Of a stretch of 38,030 nucleotides of DNA, positions 25,989 to 31,798 are shown piece by piece. This DNA is from a virus. Under the pieces are notes generated by a model. It made no database searches and was not told the DNA's origin. It saw nothing but the letters and a program-made list of their open reading frames with translations. The stretch's first letter is position 1, and each line of letters starts with the position of its first letter. Location of the stretch: IMG/VR virus record IMGVR_UViG_3300042324_000104, positions 1 to 38,030 of that record; one strand, given 5' to 3'. The position numbers and the translations under genes were made by a program.

Positions 25989-26158
25989 TAGTTAATCGCA
26001 TCCAATTGTTCTTGAGTCGGTTTAGGCAACTCGTTTGTCCAAGATGCAATATAGTCACCTTGTCCATCGTTTTGAAGTAAGATTGTACCTAATTCAGGCA
26101 TAAAATCAACATACGTTAACTGCGGATAGATTGTAATTATTTTTGTATACAAATCCAT
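25988..26158 (-). CDS. Small fibre-associated protein, 56 aa
   Basis: Starts MDLYTKIITIYPQLTYVDFM and ends with LPKPTQEQLDAIN, an ending seen in many short phage tail-fibre accessory proteins. The ATG overlaps the C1q-like stop (TAATG); an upstream start at 26191 is inside that gene. Likely a fibre assembly or attachment subunit, not proven. Confidence 0.6.
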   Translation of the reverse strand: MDLYTKIITIYPQLTYVDFMPELGTILLQNDGQGDYIASWTNELPKPTQEQLDAIN

Positions 26159-26730
26159 TATGCACCTCTTAAATAACAACCGTTGAACCATGTTTGTAAA
26201 TTAGACGCACTCATAGCTTGCCCTACACCCCAATATGCATAAACTTGAATATAATCTGTAGATCCATTACAATACACCACTGTTGATCCACTAACGGCAT
26301 TCATTGTATTGCTTCCAAGATTATCAAAACAAATCTTATACTGTGAGCCGTTTTTAAAGAATGTCAAACGCATACTTGTTCCTGACACTGCGTTTGAAGT
26401 TGCTGCATTAATTTGATAATATCCTGCAACTTGCGGATTAAACGAATAAGCAGGAGCAGTTCCTACAGTGCTTCCTGTTGCATTAAATGCAGATGCTGTA
26501 TCAAATTCTTTTGTTTGAAACTGAATTAAAGTTTGAGTGTTTGAAGATACTGTCTGAGCAGAACTTTGATAAGCATTAAAAACTGGACCTGAAACTACAG
26601 AAGGAATTTGCGAAGTTAAAGCTAAAGTACCTGTCGCTGCAGGTAAAGTTAATGTATTAGTACCGGCTACCGCAGGTGCTTGAATTGTAATAGAACCGCT
26701 GGTATCTCCAGCAAATACTGCATTACTCAT
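26158..26730 (-). CDS. C1q/TNF-like tail fibre head protein
   Basis: A 190-residue protein. The N-terminal stem motif (FAGDTSGSITIQAPAVAG) is the common phage fibre element shared with adhesin 2. Residues about 50-190 look like a C1q-type jelly roll: PVFNAYQSSAQTVSS, IQFQTKEFDTASAF, the GYYQINAATSN strand and the closing aromatic strand near WFNGCYLRGA. Such trimeric heads bind host surface sugars or proteins. It overlaps the stalk gene by 4 bases. Confidence 0.75.
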   Translation of the reverse strand: MSNAVFAGDTSGSITIQAPAVAGTNTLTLPAATGTLALTSQIPSVVSGPVFNAYQSSAQTVSSNTQTLIQFQTKEFDTASAFNATGSTVGTAPAYSFNPQVAGYYQINAATSNAVSGTSMRLTFFKNGSQYKICFDNLGSNTMNAVSGSTVVYCNGSTDYIQVYAYWGVGQAMSASNLQTWFNGCYLRGA

Positions 26731-28223
26731 AGAATCACCAATCTGCTACCAGCAGGGACTGTTAAAGTCGCTCCAGCAGCTACGTTTAGACCGACAACCA
26801 TAGCATTGCTTCCGGTTGGGATAGTATAACTAGATGTTACTTGGTTTGTTACAAACACACCAGCGTTCATTGCAGGGGCTTGTAAGTCTCCAGTAGAAGG
26901 TTTGTATAAATACTTGCTATTGCTTGTATAAATTGTTGTTGGTACGCCACTTGTTGCTGCTGCAAACAAAGGATACAGATTGCTACTTGTACTGGTGTCA
27001 TTACTTAACGCAGCTCCTGCAGCGACAGTCGCCCATGATGCAGTTGAACCGTCAGTTGTTAAATACTTACCGTTATTACCAGTCTGTGATGGAAGACTTA
27101 CTGGAGCAGCTTGCCATGTTGGAGCAGCAGAGCCGTTAGACGTTAGAATCTGTCCAGATGTTCCTGCTGCTGTAATAGCATAAGCAGAACCAGTTCCGTA
27201 AACCGCACCGCCTAATGTTGGTGTAGCTGTACTGTTTGTACCACCATTAGCAATCGGTAAAGTACCGCTTACATCAGCAGTAGAAATATCTAAAGCGTCC
27301 CAAGATGTACTTGTTCCGTTAGTCTTTAAATACTTACCATTATTACCTGTTTGAGTTGGGATTACCGCAGCAGCGGCAGCGGCACTTACAGCAGCGTCTG
27401 TTGCAGAACCTGCAGCGGCTGTTGCTGAAGAAGCAGCGTTTGTTGCTGAGGTTGATGCACTAGAAGCTGAACCCGAAGCACTTGTTGCGCTAGAGGCAGC
27501 GTTAGTGGCTGACGTAGAAGCATTAGAAGCAGACGTAGAAGCAGCCGATGCAGAACTTGCTGCATTAGTTGCTTGTGTTGTTGCTATTCCTGCTTGAGTA
27601 GTTGCTGTAGTTGCTGAACCGGATGCGCTGGTAGCGGAAGCGGCTGCATTAGTCTCAGAAGTACTGGCGCTAGAGGCTGAAGCAGATGCTGAAGTAGCTG
27701 ATCCTGCAGCGGATGTAGCGGAGTTGCTTGCATTGGTAGCAGATGTGGAAGCACTTGATGCACTGCTTGCAGCGTTTGTTGCTGAAGTGCTTGCTGCGCT
27801 TGCTGAGTTGCTTGCGTTAGTTGCTGCTGTGCTTGCTGTAGATGCTGAGGTGCTTGCATTAGATGCCTGTGTAGTTGCTGTTGCCGCAGCAGTTTCTGCG
27901 TTAGTCTCTGCTGTCTCTGCGTTGGTTTCTGCCACCAAAGCAGCGTCACGTGCAGCCTCAGCAGCGACTTGAGCCGCTAGAGCAGCAGCGATGTCATCAG
28001 ATAAGTCAGTAGCTACGGCTTCGGCAGCAGCTTGAGCAGCTTCTGCGGCTGCTTCAGCAGTTTCAGCGTTTGTTTCAGCTAGTTGTGCTGCAATCTTAGC
28101 AGCTTCTGCAGCATTCTTAGCAGCAACAGCTTCATCACGAGCAATGACGGTTGCAGAGGCTTCGGAAGCTGCATCATTGACTGCATCACCAACACCACCG
28201 GGTCCTCTATATATTCCTATGAT
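26727..28223 (-). CDS. Ala/Ser/Thr-rich tail fibre stalk with non-standard start
   Basis: About 498 residues if read from ATC at 28223 (or ATA at 28220). It begins IIGIYRGPGGVGDAV, a typical fibre N-terminus, then an Ala-rich coiled region (AETNAETAEAAAEAAQ), a long run of SATNAASSAS-type repeats, two copies of a TGNNGKYL module, and a C-terminal beta cap ending PAGSRLVIL. The frame has a TAG at 28232-28230 and no ATG, GTG or TTG until TTG at 27938, which has no ribosome site. GGAAGGTAGGG lies 4-9 bases before ATC/ATA. Either rare-codon initiation or a -1 shift from the HNH gene is needed. Confidence 0.7.
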   Translation of the reverse strand: MIGIYRGPGGVGDAVNDAASEASATVIARDEAVAAKNAAEAAKIAAQLAETNAETAEAAAEAAQAAAEAVATDLSDDIAAALAAQVAAEAARDAALVAETNAETAETNAETAAATATTQASNASTSASTASTAATNASNSASAASTSATNAASSASSASTSATNASNSATSAAGSATSASASASSASTSETNAAASATSASGSATTATTQAGIATTQATNAASSASAASTSASNASTSATNAASSATSASGSASSASTSATNAASSATAAAGSATDAAVSAAAAAAVIPTQTGNNGKYLKTNGTSTSWDALDISTADVSGTLPIANGGTNSTATPTLGGAVYGTGSAYAITAAGTSGQILTSNGSAAPTWQAAPVSLPSQTGNNGKYLTTDGSTASWATVAAGAALSNDTSTSSNLYPLFAAATSGVPTTIYTSNSKYLYKPSTGDLQAPAMNAGVFVTNQVTSSYTIPTGSNAMVVGLNVAAGATLTVPAGSRLVIL

Positions 28224-28735
28224 TTTACCCTACCTTCCTCAAACTTATTAGACTTGGAGCAGTTTTGACTAGCTGTTAAAACTTGTAAATTCCAAGGAAC
28301 GTGTAAACCACATACTGTTTTACCTTGCAACGGCACTATGTGATCTACATGGTGTTTGATGCTGGTTGTTTTTTGTTGTATTGCAGCTAATTTATAAATA
28401 GATTCAATTTCAATGTAATGTTCTGTTGTTAGCCATAAAGGTGTAGCTTGGAGTTTTTTAGCTCTTCGTTTACCTTCATAAGAACAATGCTTATCTTTAT
28501 TATCTTGTTTCCACTGCTTTGAATATTCTTTGTGTTTTTCTAAAGCATATTCTTTATTATCTTGATACCACTGATTAGCTCGTTGTTTTGCAGCTTCTCT
28601 GTTTTTAGCAGCGTATTCTCGATCCGTGCTTCTTTTACAATCACGGCACTCAGAAGCAAGTCCGTCTTTCTTATAAGAATTAACACCAAACGCTAATTTT
28701 GGTTTTGTTGTAGAACACTTCCAGCAATGTTTCAA
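28217..28735 (-). CDS. HNH homing-type endonuclease with N-terminal zinc ribbon
   Basis: A 172-residue protein. N-terminal cysteines (CWKCSTTK ... CRDCKR) form a zinc ribbon, followed by a basic Lys/Gln-rich helical region and the HNH core: HHVDHIVPLQGK, LHVPWNLQVL and NCSKSNKF. It starts with TTG at 28735 directly after the preceding TAA, with AGAGG 6 bases upstream. Free-standing HNH genes of this type are mobile and often lie between late genes. Its last codons overlap the start region of the fibre gene. Confidence 0.85.
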   Translation of the reverse strand: MKHCWKCSTTKPKLAFGVNSYKKDGLASECRDCKRSTDREYAAKNREAAKQRANQWYQDNKEYALEKHKEYSKQWKQDNKDKHCSYEGKRRAKKLQATPLWLTTEHYIEIESIYKLAAIQQKTTSIKHHVDHIVPLQGKTVCGLHVPWNLQVLTASQNCSKSNKFEEGRVKS

Positions 28736-28906
28736 TTAAACCTCTTTAGATTTAGAAACTACTTTCTTAACTACTACAGGTTCAACTTTAGGTTTTACTT
28801 CTTCTACAATTTCATCGTATTCAGGATGACGACGCATAGTCTTAATATCCCAATCGTTGTCAACAGTAATTTGAGTTCCAGATAGTTTGCACTTAAATTG
28901 CGCCAT
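28736..28906 (-). CDS. Small protein after major capsid, 56 aa
   Basis: A frame starting MAQFKCKLSGTQITVDNDWD with the DIKTMRRHPEYDEI segment that is common in short proteins placed after phage capsid genes, then a Val/Lys-rich tail. AGGAG lies 5 bases before the ATG. The function, perhaps capsid decoration or head completion, is unknown. Confidence 0.7.
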   Translation of the reverse strand: MAQFKCKLSGTQITVDNDWDIKTMRRHPEYDEIVEEVKPKVEPVVVKKVVSKSKEV

Positions 28907-28927
28907 TTTGTCTCCTACAGTTTATTT

Positions 28928-28997
28928 AAAGAGTCTACAAAGACCCCTTAAAGAAACTGCCCCACATCTACTGCAGGGCAGAACCTAGTTTCTAGGT
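28928..28997 (-). terminator. Tandem hairpins after the capsid gene (terminator/attenuator)
   Basis: In transcription order: ACCTAG-AAA-CTAGGT (28997-28983); CTGCCC / GGGCAG (28981-28957, 13-base loop) followed by TTTCTTT; and AAGGGGTCT-TTGT-AGACTCTTT (28949-28928, with G-U pairs). The second resembles a weak intrinsic terminator. Together they probably lower read-through so that capsid is made in excess. Confidence 0.65.
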
Positions 28998-28998
28998 A

Positions 28999-29922
28999 TT
29001 AGGCTGGAACAGCGATTGCTACGGCAGCACCGTCACGCAACTCTGAAACACCAAACAATGTGTCAGCGGTAAACAATGTACCGAGCCACTCTTGCTTGTA
29101 TTGAGTTTGTGAACGAACAGCCATTTGCTCTGCTAATACTGCGAAGTCACGATGACCAAGCAAGCAAACACGAGTAGCTGTAGAACCAGTAGTTGTATCA
29201 GCATTGCTAGATACGAAAACAGGAACACCGTATACGTTACCAATTTCACCGTTACGGATGGTATTTGAAGAACCGGCTTCGCCAACGAAAGCTTGCTCAG
29301 TAAAGCGGTCAATACCCATCAATGTGTTACGTGTTGAAGGTGGAACGATCAAGAAACGACCATCCATTGGAACGTCTTGGTCATCCAAACGCTGGATAGA
29401 ACGACGGATAGCAGCATCAGTCAAAGCGCCAACACCAGTGTTAGCAGCAGCAACATAAGCAGTTGTACCGTCAGCACCAGAGAAAGCACCGCTGTAAGCA
29501 GCAGTACCACCGCCACCTTGAACAGCACGACCTAGTTCGATCAACTTGCTGTCAACCTTACGAGCCAAAGCGTAACCAGCATCATCAGTGTAGAATTGAC
29601 GCATAGAAGCCAAAGCTTGAGCTTCTACGATGTCTTCGATCAAGATTGAATATTCCCAATGTTGGTCGATAGATACTACAACTTCAGTTGCTGTGTCTAC
29701 GTTCAATGTTACTTGAGTAGCTGCAGTCTTAGCGTTTGCATTGCCACGACCCGGTTTTGGAATATGCAGTGAGTCACCTTTTTTGCCTTTGAAAGACATT
29801 TTCTTGATGAGGTTTGCAAGAACCAAGTTCTTTTTGTATGTTGCTACGACCTCGTCACTCCAAATTTCTGGAATGAACTTATTCGCTGTTGTTACTGTTT
29901 GATTGTTATCACCAAAAGCCAT
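28999..29922 (-). CDS. Major capsid protein (HK97-like fold)
   Basis: A 307-residue protein starting MAFGDNNQTVTTANKFIPEI. The opening helix followed by KKMSFKGKKGDSLHIPKPGR, the EDIVEAQALASMRQFYTDDA spine region and RFLIVPPSTRNTLMG are typical of HK97-fold coat proteins in T7-like and related podoviruses. It forms the icosahedral head around the scaffold encoded just before it. A good ribosome site (AGGAG) lies upstream. Tandem hairpins follow. Confidence 0.88.
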   Translation of the reverse strand: MAFGDNNQTVTTANKFIPEIWSDEVVATYKKNLVLANLIKKMSFKGKKGDSLHIPKPGRGNANAKTAATQVTLNVDTATEVVVSIDQHWEYSILIEDIVEAQALASMRQFYTDDAGYALARKVDSKLIELGRAVQGGGGTAAYSGAFSGADGTTAYVAAANTGVGALTDAAIRRSIQRLDDQDVPMDGRFLIVPPSTRNTLMGIDRFTEQAFVGEAGSSNTIRNGEIGNVYGVPVFVSSNADTTTGSTATRVCLLGHRDFAVLAEQMAVRSQTQYKQEWLGTLFTADTLFGVSELRDGAAVAIAVPA

Positions 29923-29949
29923 TTTTAAAATCTCCTAAATTAAATAAAA

Positions 29950-30756
29950 TTATTTTACTCGACCTTCGTTATACGCTGCCATAATATCATCTTGCATGGC
30001 ATTGTATCTCTCTGGGTCTTGCATTCTTAAACGAATTAAATCGACACGTCTATAAATAGGTTTGCCTACTTCCCCTGTACCACCCTTCTGAACAGCAGCG
30101 GCTTTCAATGTCTGGTTACGTTTAACATTCTCACCTTGTTTCAGCGCATCGTCTGCTTGTTGAGCCTTAACACCACGAAGCTGTGTATAAGTATCTAGCA
30201 ACTCTTCTGCTGAATCGTAGTCATAATTGTTAGCTTTCGCAAACAAATCTAAGCGTACTTTAGAAGTCTTGATCCAATTAGCGAAATCATCAGAAGCGAC
30301 AATCTCTTGGAAGTTCGGGAACTTAGACTGTAACTGCGATGCAGCTTGTTGTCTAACCTGAGCTTCCTGCTGTTCACGTAACTGACGAACAACTGGATTG
30401 TTTTCTACTGCATGATTTACTGCCTTATCGGGGTCAGCAAAGTAATCTATCTCGTTATCTTCGGCACGTGGCTGCGTGTCTTGCTTGTTGGTATTGAGTT
30501 GTTGCTTGATTAATTCGTCGGCTAACTTACGAACTTCACCTACTTCCTGAGCTTGCCTTCCAATTAGCTTTTCAGCCTCTTGGTGCATCTTCACGATCTC
30601 GTCTAAAGTTTTACCTTTATACTTTTCGGGAACTGCTTCAGTGTTAGCTACTTGTAAAGAGTTGTCTTCTGCTTGAGCAGTAGGTTCTTGTTGTTGGCTA
30701 CTAGGTAAATCGCTTGTACCTTCGTGGTCGTCTTGCACTTCAATGATTTCAGCCAT
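29950..30756 (-). CDS. Scaffolding protein
   Basis: A 268-residue, Glu/Gln/Lys-rich, helical protein placed just before the capsid gene, with a disordered acidic N-terminus (VQDDHEGTSDLPSSQQQE) and a basic C-terminus (VDLIRLRMQDPERYNAM) that would contact the coat, as in T7 gp9-like scaffolds. Two ATGs are adjacent; the second (30756) has AGGAG at the better 5-base spacing. It is removed from the mature head in relatives. Confidence 0.8.
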   Translation of the reverse strand: MAEIIEVQDDHEGTSDLPSSQQQEPTAQAEDNSLQVANTEAVPEKYKGKTLDEIVKMHQEAEKLIGRQAQEVGEVRKLADELIKQQLNTNKQDTQPRAEDNEIDYFADPDKAVNHAVENNPVVRQLREQQEAQVRQQAASQLQSKFPNFQEIVASDDFANWIKTSKVRLDLFAKANNYDYDSAEELLDTYTQLRGVKAQQADDALKQGENVKRNQTLKAAAVQKGGTGEVGKPIYRRVDLIRLRMQDPERYNAMQDDIMAAYNEGRVK

Positions 30757-31064: not shown

Positions 31065-31308
31065 CTTCTTCGTCCGCTTGGAGTTGGTCATAAACTTCAG
31101 CACTTGCATCTCTAAGGTTCTTGATCCAGTTAAGGATTGACATCTCACCTTTTTTGAAGTACAACTGCTGCTCTGAATCGATTCCAGCTAACGTATCTGT
31201 AGCTTTAATCATGATTTCTAAATCCTCTAGGAGGTCTTGCCATCCCGGAGTAGCCATCATTTCAAAGCGGCTCTCATAGTAGTCTTGTAGTTCTCTAGCT
31301 ATTGCCAT
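31045..31308 (-). CDS. Hypothetical head-region protein, 87 aa
   Basis: Starts MAIARELQDYYESRFEMMAT, with the 'LYFKKGEMSILNWIKNL' segment seen in a family of short phage proteins between portal and capsid genes. Helical and acidic. GGAG lies 7 bases before ATG at 31308; a start at 31332 would overlap the endonuclease gene more. It may be a head assembly or completion factor. Confidence 0.65.
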   Translation of the reverse strand: MAIARELQDYYESRFEMMATPGWQDLLEDLEIMIKATDTLAGIDSEQQLYFKKGEMSILNWIKNLRDASAEVYDQLQADEEDAETLV

Positions 31309-31690
31309 TGTTTTTCTCCAAATAATTCGCAAGCCTTCTCAAAATATCTGGATTATCTCTAGCACTTCCTAAAGCCACGTTACAGGGTTGACAGAGATAA
31401 CCTCTTATGTTTCCTGTATCATGACAATGATCAACTACTAACCGACCCCACTTATGAGAGTTTATGGCTTCTGTGTCACATACCTGACATTTATTGTCAA
31501 GCTTTAATACCTCAGCATTGTATTGGTCTTCAGTTATTCCGTAGGTTCGCTTAAAATGTGCGTTTCGCCCGTAATAACTATAATGACACTTCTTACAATG
31601 CTTATAAAAACCGTCTTTGTACCGAACATTTGAGCTAAACTCTAATATCGGTTTATCTTGCTTACAAATAGCGCAATGCTTTACTTCCAT
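31295..31690 (-). CDS. Endonuclease VII-like recombination nuclease
   Basis: A 131-residue protein. The zinc-binding cysteines (CAICKQ ... CKKCHYSYYGRN) precede the core NKCQVCDTE, LVVDHCHDTGNIRG and YLCQPCNVALG, matching the T4 gp49 endonuclease VII / HNH family that resolves branched DNA before packaging. GAGG lies 6 bases before ATG at 31690; the earlier GTG at 31702 sits on that site. It is the first gene after the second strong leftward promoter. Confidence 0.88.
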   Translation of the reverse strand: MEVKHCAICKQDKPILEFSSNVRYKDGFYKHCKKCHYSYYGRNAHFKRTYGITEDQYNAEVLKLDNKCQVCDTEAINSHKWGRLVVDHCHDTGNIRGYLCQPCNVALGSARDNPDILRRLANYLEKNNGNS

Positions 31691-31798
31691 GTCAGTCCTC
31701 ACTAACCCTCAAGAATAATTTAGGCAGGAAAGTGAGGAACTTTCTTTTCAGGAGCTACCCTAGCCTAAAACCAGTCAACAAATGTTGCTTTAACTTCT

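Follow-up and report, generated by a model that had tools for sequence, protein, structure and literature searches.

The 38,030-base window analysed here is a virus record from IMG/VR. Its minus strand carries, in reading order, a major capsid gene (28999..29922), a small gene of 56 amino acids (28736..28906), an HNH endonuclease gene (28217..28735) and a tail-fibre gene (26727..28220). The capsid gene starts at an ATG, was recognized by homology to annotated capsid proteins, and encodes a product less than 60% identical to those of known phages. The HNH gene opens with a TTG and encodes a 172-amino-acid, endonuclease VII-like product (PHROG phrog_1035, E=4.3e-24) that matches no Pfam family at E<=0.01. 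A second HNH gene lies between structural genes at 31295-31702 (Pfam Endonuclease_7, E=2e-23), and in four other contigs (L003, L004, L012 and L062; L numbers designate contigs throughout) different HNH genes also run right up to the ATG of the gene that follows. The fibre gene, 497 codons long when counted from its proposed AUA start, was identified from its translation and from PHROG tail fibre matches, the best being phrog_3279 (E=2.7e-10); matches to its product were found neither among GenBank phages nor among genomes. The protein begins with IGIYRGPGGVGDAV and has a middle rich in Ala, Ser and Thr.

The start region of the fibre frame

On the minus strand, the fibre frame runs open from 28229 to 26727, 500 codons following a TAG at 28230..28232. 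Its first usual start codon is a TTG at 27936..27938, at codon offset 97, followed by a GTG at offset 98. The absence of any ATG, GTG or TTG between that TAG and TTG had been pointed out in the first-pass annotation, and the coordinates it gave are correct. Among the window's coding-strand frames with 120 codons or more, the fibre frame is the sole one that has no start codon near its beginning; the other large start offset, 42, belongs to a frame antisense to the fibre. What stands at the head of the frame is a conserved ribosome-binding leader, GGAAGGTAGGGTAAA, at 28224..28238 on the minus strand, so that the ribosome-site sequence noticed earlier ahead of ATC 28223 and ATA 28220 is indeed present. 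The bounding TAG is embedded in this motif, an ATC (28223-28221) sits in frame just upstream of the ATA, and the end of the AGGG is 7 bases from the ATA. With an anti-Shine–Dalgarno sequence of the E. coli type assumed for the host, the leader is predicted to form a duplex of −9.8 kcal/mol. The stop codon of the HNH gene, TAG 28219-28217, overlaps the ATA as ATAG on the same strand, again as first described. Other copies of the leader motif in the window all have 3 mismatches, and the idea that it is a repeated promoter was discarded. A 16-base string of the leader, GAAGGYAGGGTAAAAT, also ends the gene before the capsid in L015 (4401), L016 (325) and L024 (1167); there it codes for EGRVK, while the window HNH protein ends in EEGRVKS, and the resemblance may have arisen by recombination or by chance.

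The missing start is more than an accident of one record, since 20 further contigs show it as well. In L235 the complete fibre frame of 429 codons contains no usual start codon at all; in L082 the sole one among 398 codons is a TTG in last place, and in L165 and L166 none occurs for 301 codons. An exact search with the window's own junction found it in no other contig.

The origin of the window's arrangement can be traced by comparison with its nearest relative, L164, in which the small gene stands directly before the fibre gene, as it does in other relatives lacking the HNH gene. The two sequences match by BLASTN at 88% up to 28736 and at 81% from 28220, the match resuming exactly at the A of the L164 ATG. 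Between the matches lie 515 bases in the window (28221..28735) and two in L164. An empty-site allele is thus preserved in a close relative, and the comparison indicates that HNH gene and leader entered together, immediately ahead of the start codon. The third base of that codon is G in L164, and in the window it is A.

The homologous codon in related phages

Relatives found through the capsid protein share a fibre N-terminus of the form xIYRGxGGxGD. In those with no HNH gene directly in front, the fibre starts at an ATG (in one case a GTG) homologous to window position 28220; in L004 the start is one codon earlier. Alignment with such HNH-less fibres had been proposed as a check, and their ATG falls on 28220-28218. 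ATG, TTG, GTG and the AUH codons (AUA, AUU, AUC) all fall at a single homologous position. L233 and L235 have 20 bases, TAAACAAGTCAAGGAGAATA, in common, followed by TTG in the former and ATA in the latter. Among the HNH-related loci, L165 and L166 carry the window's GGAAGGTAGGGTAAAATC-ATA, L082, L172 and L173 carry AAAGGCAGGGTAAATCT-ATT, and L184 has an ATG; L180 starts with ATT behind TTTTAGGGGAATATT. Six distinct loci (L019, L031, L175, L178, L179 and L181) use a TTG overlapping the end of the HNH gene and gain 12 fibre codons. This extension reads FYNSPKxKH..., and its TTG lies inside the HNH 3′ end.

The frequency of these starts was counted in 113 distinct sequences chosen without regard to start codon, which comprised 73 ATG, 22 TTG, 6 ATA, 5 ATT and 1 GTG, along with 6 in which a TTG lies 12 codons upstream. 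Targeted scans, two of them designed to find AUH behind a Shine–Dalgarno sequence, raised the AUH total to 19 distinct sequences (7 ATA, 8 ATT, 4 ATC) in 21 contigs including the window. A scan with the leader that placed no constraint on the third base of the start codon yielded nine contigs besides the window, every one with A, T or C at that base and none with ATG; three of them, L221 (ATA), L225 and L228 (both ATC), are without HNH. A scan with the fibre protein added further TTG starts at the same codon as well as ATA in L235, L260 and L270, and a second pattern scan added AUH starts in L308, L310–L314 and L316. AUH starts thus appear, as judged from these alignments, in about twenty related phages, behind a strong ribosome-binding site. 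The leaders are linked by descent and by horizontal exchange, and the cases are therefore not all independent.

The leader itself is identical in L165 and L166 and near-identical in L221, L225, L228, L082, L172, L173 and L224. The Shine–Dalgarno core lies 6–7 bases before the start in 19/19 AUH and 22/22 TTG sequences, as against a spread of 5–10 for ATG, a regularity that in the AUH sequences recovered by pattern scans is partly set by the scan patterns. With the E. coli-type anti-Shine–Dalgarno again assumed, predicted duplexes are stronger for AUH and TTG starts than for ATG. Because two of the scans were built on a Shine–Dalgarno sequence plus AUH, the unselected set provides the fair test of duplex energy: there AUH leaders reach −8.3 kcal/mol and ATG leaders −6.7 (P=4e-4; P=0.004 when distinct leaders are counted).

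Downstream of the start, the sequences change as a coding region would. Over the next 20 codons, differences between AUH sequences fall mostly at third positions (758/400/1810 by codon position over all pairs, which are non-independent), and the closest pairs differ at 0/0/2. Codon 1 stays AUH among the AUH sequences; other codons occur there in the group with the extended TTG start. Two neighbouring genes served as controls in the same contigs: an ATG is available in 103/103 capsid genes and in 80/82 cases for the next gene. On a capsid tree the AUH sequences are scattered, requiring 16 changes, at least 10 of them forced by supported branches; the trait thus arises or moves repeatedly, by point change or module exchange, which this tree does not separate.

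Starts other than AUG or GUG are found in 17 of the 19 loci with HNH directly in front and in 22 of the 94 others (Fisher P=8e-8, relatedness ignored; unselected set, with L254 placed in the HNH group). That the HNH gene causes the non-AUG start was considered and dropped, since five AUH contigs (L221, L225, L228, L235 and L270) are without one; the association remains. The simplest account would be an HNH element that brings along a leader for the gene behind it. The further idea that a weak start gives protection from homing is speculative.

Competing readings of the locus

Several explanations other than initiation at the AUA deserve weighing. The nearest to it places the start at AUC 28223, alone or in tandem with the AUA. 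This codon is near-cognate and in frame, and an ATC or ATT directly precedes the start in 12/19 AUH sequences. It is quite unlikely to be the start: no such codon precedes the start in L082, L172, L173, L224, L225, L228 or L221, the second codon of the pair is the one matched by ATG or TTG in relatives, and the AUC is just 4 bases from the AGGG. Of the AUC/AUA initiation raised at first pass, the part concerning AUA 28220 is borne out by its homologous position, and the part concerning AUC is not, although AUC 28223 could contribute to initiation. A usual codon further inside the frame, TTG 27938 in the window, followed by the GTG at the next offset, could in principle serve, and the product would then begin downstream of the conserved N-terminus. 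Such a choice is highly improbable, as the strongly conserved IYRGxGG segment would be lost, L235 has no such codon and L082 has one only in last place. Homologous fibres that start near TTG 27938 were sought and none was seen; in relatives the fibre begins at the counterpart of 28220. The start might also have been destroyed, by an assembly error or by mutation of a dying gene after homing. In its favour, the HNH insertion of 515 bases reaches right to the start codon, which in the nearest relative is an ATG. It is nonetheless very unlikely: 20 further contigs are in the same or a comparable condition, their frames are intact over as many as 930 codons, most changes after the first codon are synonymous, and the state also exists without HNH. 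Of the recent homing damage suggested earlier, the insertion is confirmed and the damage is not supported, for the ribosome-binding context is conserved and HNH-less cases occur.

A programmed −1 shift at the AAAA run (28226-28223), fusing the HNH protein to the fibre, was likewise put forward in the first-pass annotation. The window's HNH frame does continue through the A-run without a stop, and slipping by −1 there would lead into the fibre frame, but among the examined contigs with this leader this is so in the window only. The HNH stop precedes the run in L165, L166, L082, L172 and L173; in L180, L260, L308, L313 and L316, which have HNH in front, the fibre frame is interrupted by a TAG four codons ahead of the start; and in the five HNH-less contigs there is no adjoining upstream gene to shift from, the capsid stop lying 100–123 bases upstream. 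A fusion is thus very unlikely. Least probable, to the point of being negligible, is that the HNH segment is an intron whose splicing restores an AUG. In several contigs the HNH gene does stand where the start and leader of the fibre gene itself would be, but nearly the whole insert is coding, HNH-less contigs are also without AUG, and an Rfam scan of 26000-30000 at E<=1 returned no group I or II match, only unrelated sub-threshold ones. Other structured RNAs in the region gave chance-level Rfam matches and were set aside. A TAG often lies in frame shortly ahead of the fibre start, but its read-through or recoding does not account for the gene: in the window, L165 and L166 another stop occurs a few codons further upstream, and the interval contains no start codon; in L235, L270, L312 and L314 the upstream TAG is absent. 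A phage-encoded unusual initiator tRNA was dismissed as well, the window containing no tRNA.

A putative AUA start and its parallels

The reading preferred here is that the fibre is very probably initiated at AUA 28220-28218 from a strong ribosome site, an arrangement that probably keeps fibre output low. The homology of the start position, its conservation, the near-fixed Shine–Dalgarno spacing and the lack of alternative starts are apparent at the level of sequence. From them we infer initiation at the AUA by ordinary ribosomes and initiator tRNA, with fMet as residue 1 and GPGGVGDAVNDAASEASATVIAR as the predicted N-terminal tryptic peptide. The strong Shine–Dalgarno AAGGTAGGG, 7 bases upstream, would hold the ribosome over a codon that pairs with the initiator tRNA at its first two bases only. 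In the presence of IF3 in vitro, only Watson–Crick pairs are tolerated at bases one and two and the third is treated more laxly (PMC10158994), which fits AUN being the sole non-NUG class in the unselected set. In the window, where the stop of the HNH gene overlaps the AUA, terminating ribosomes may re-initiate at the ATAG, and this could add to initiation of the fibre. The purpose would probably be a low output of fibre relative to the abundant capsid encoded just upstream. Since in related phages, too, an AUA, AUU or AUC follows a strong ribosome-binding site at this point, the AUH start looks like a stable, probably low-output way of making the fibre and not like damage or error. The start would have changed repeatedly among AUG, UUG, AUA, AUU, AUC and once GUG, by point change or by the swapping of leader modules, the window's own leader apparently having come within the segment inserted with the HNH gene exactly before the start codon.

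More tentatively, and on balance doubtfully, the fibre start across this group of uncultured phages may be a freely evolving rheostat, in which selection holds the start weak (UUG, AUA, AUU or AUC) and the ribosome site strong, HNH elements ferry ready-made leaders, and a change of start may guard against homing cleavage. An in-frame AUH codon often precedes the start, as in the window, L165, L166, L235, L260, L270, L308, L313, L316, L180, L312 and L314, in the combinations ATC-ATA, ATC-ATT, ATT-ATT, ATC-ATC and ATT-ATC. Such tandem weak starts may add up.

To our knowledge, AUA is hardly ever used as a start codon in bacteria, and we know of AUA, AUU or AUC starts documented in few bacterial genes. 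Among these, E. coli infC and pcnB start at AUU. In phages, none was found in the literature searched, the coverage of which was incomplete. In S. aureus, infC, ccpN (AUA) and cvfC1 (AUU) all have an extended Shine–Dalgarno; these genes are backed by Ribo-Ret, ccpN and cvfC1 also by reporters, and the starts of these two are conserved across relatives (PMC13009471). Reporters of ccpN, citZ and cvfC1 reach about 10% of the AUG level, ccpN up to 30% (PMC13009471), and the same logic would give a low output of fibre. Like the S. aureus and E. coli cases, the phage fibre would start at an AUH codon behind a strong or extended Shine–Dalgarno. Unlike those cellular genes, it is a structural gene of many related phages, and its putative start codon turns over among six types. 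The sugar regulators of Enterobacteriaceae, some of which have non-ATG starts (GTG and others), offer another likeness, in that their starts vary by repeated independent change thought to tune expression; they differ in that non-ATG there means GTG and the like, AUA, AUU, ATA and ATT being absent from that text (PMC11445065).

Two mobile-element systems also bear comparison. As with free-standing phage HNH homing endonucleases, a small HNH-type reading frame sits precisely beside a conserved gene, and L164 has the allele that lacks it; unlike them, this element reaches right to a start codon, and the 3′ end of its HNH gene provides the ribosome site for the gene that follows. In T4 gene 60, translational bypass occurs beside a mobile endonuclease. 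Here too a mobile endonuclease adjoins a gene with unusual decoding, but there is no interrupted frame and no take-off and landing pair, the unusual step being initiation. The window is thus an example of an HNH element flush with a start codon and supplying the next gene's ribosome site, and the recurrent AUH starts sit in what is probably a host-recognition gene. Gene callers limited to ATG, GTG and TTG would truncate or miss such tail fibres. The natural pair of TTG and ATA behind the same leader makes the strength of the start codon directly testable.

The junction between capsid and fibre genes has features of its own. L172, L248 and L265 encode identical capsid proteins, and their fibres start with ATT, ATG and TTG, respectively, behind different spacers; to judge by these three, recombination seems to occur at the junction. 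The window has a stem-loop of the UUUAAG...CUUUAAA type directly downstream of the capsid gene (28925-28953, minus strand). The same stem-loop is present in the capsid–fibre spacer of L165, L221, L235, L238 and others, and in HNH-less contigs it stands directly before the fibre ribosome site. It is possibly a site of RNA processing or attenuation. In 14 hand-picked sequences, 4 of its 8 predicted pairs show two-sided, compensating changes.
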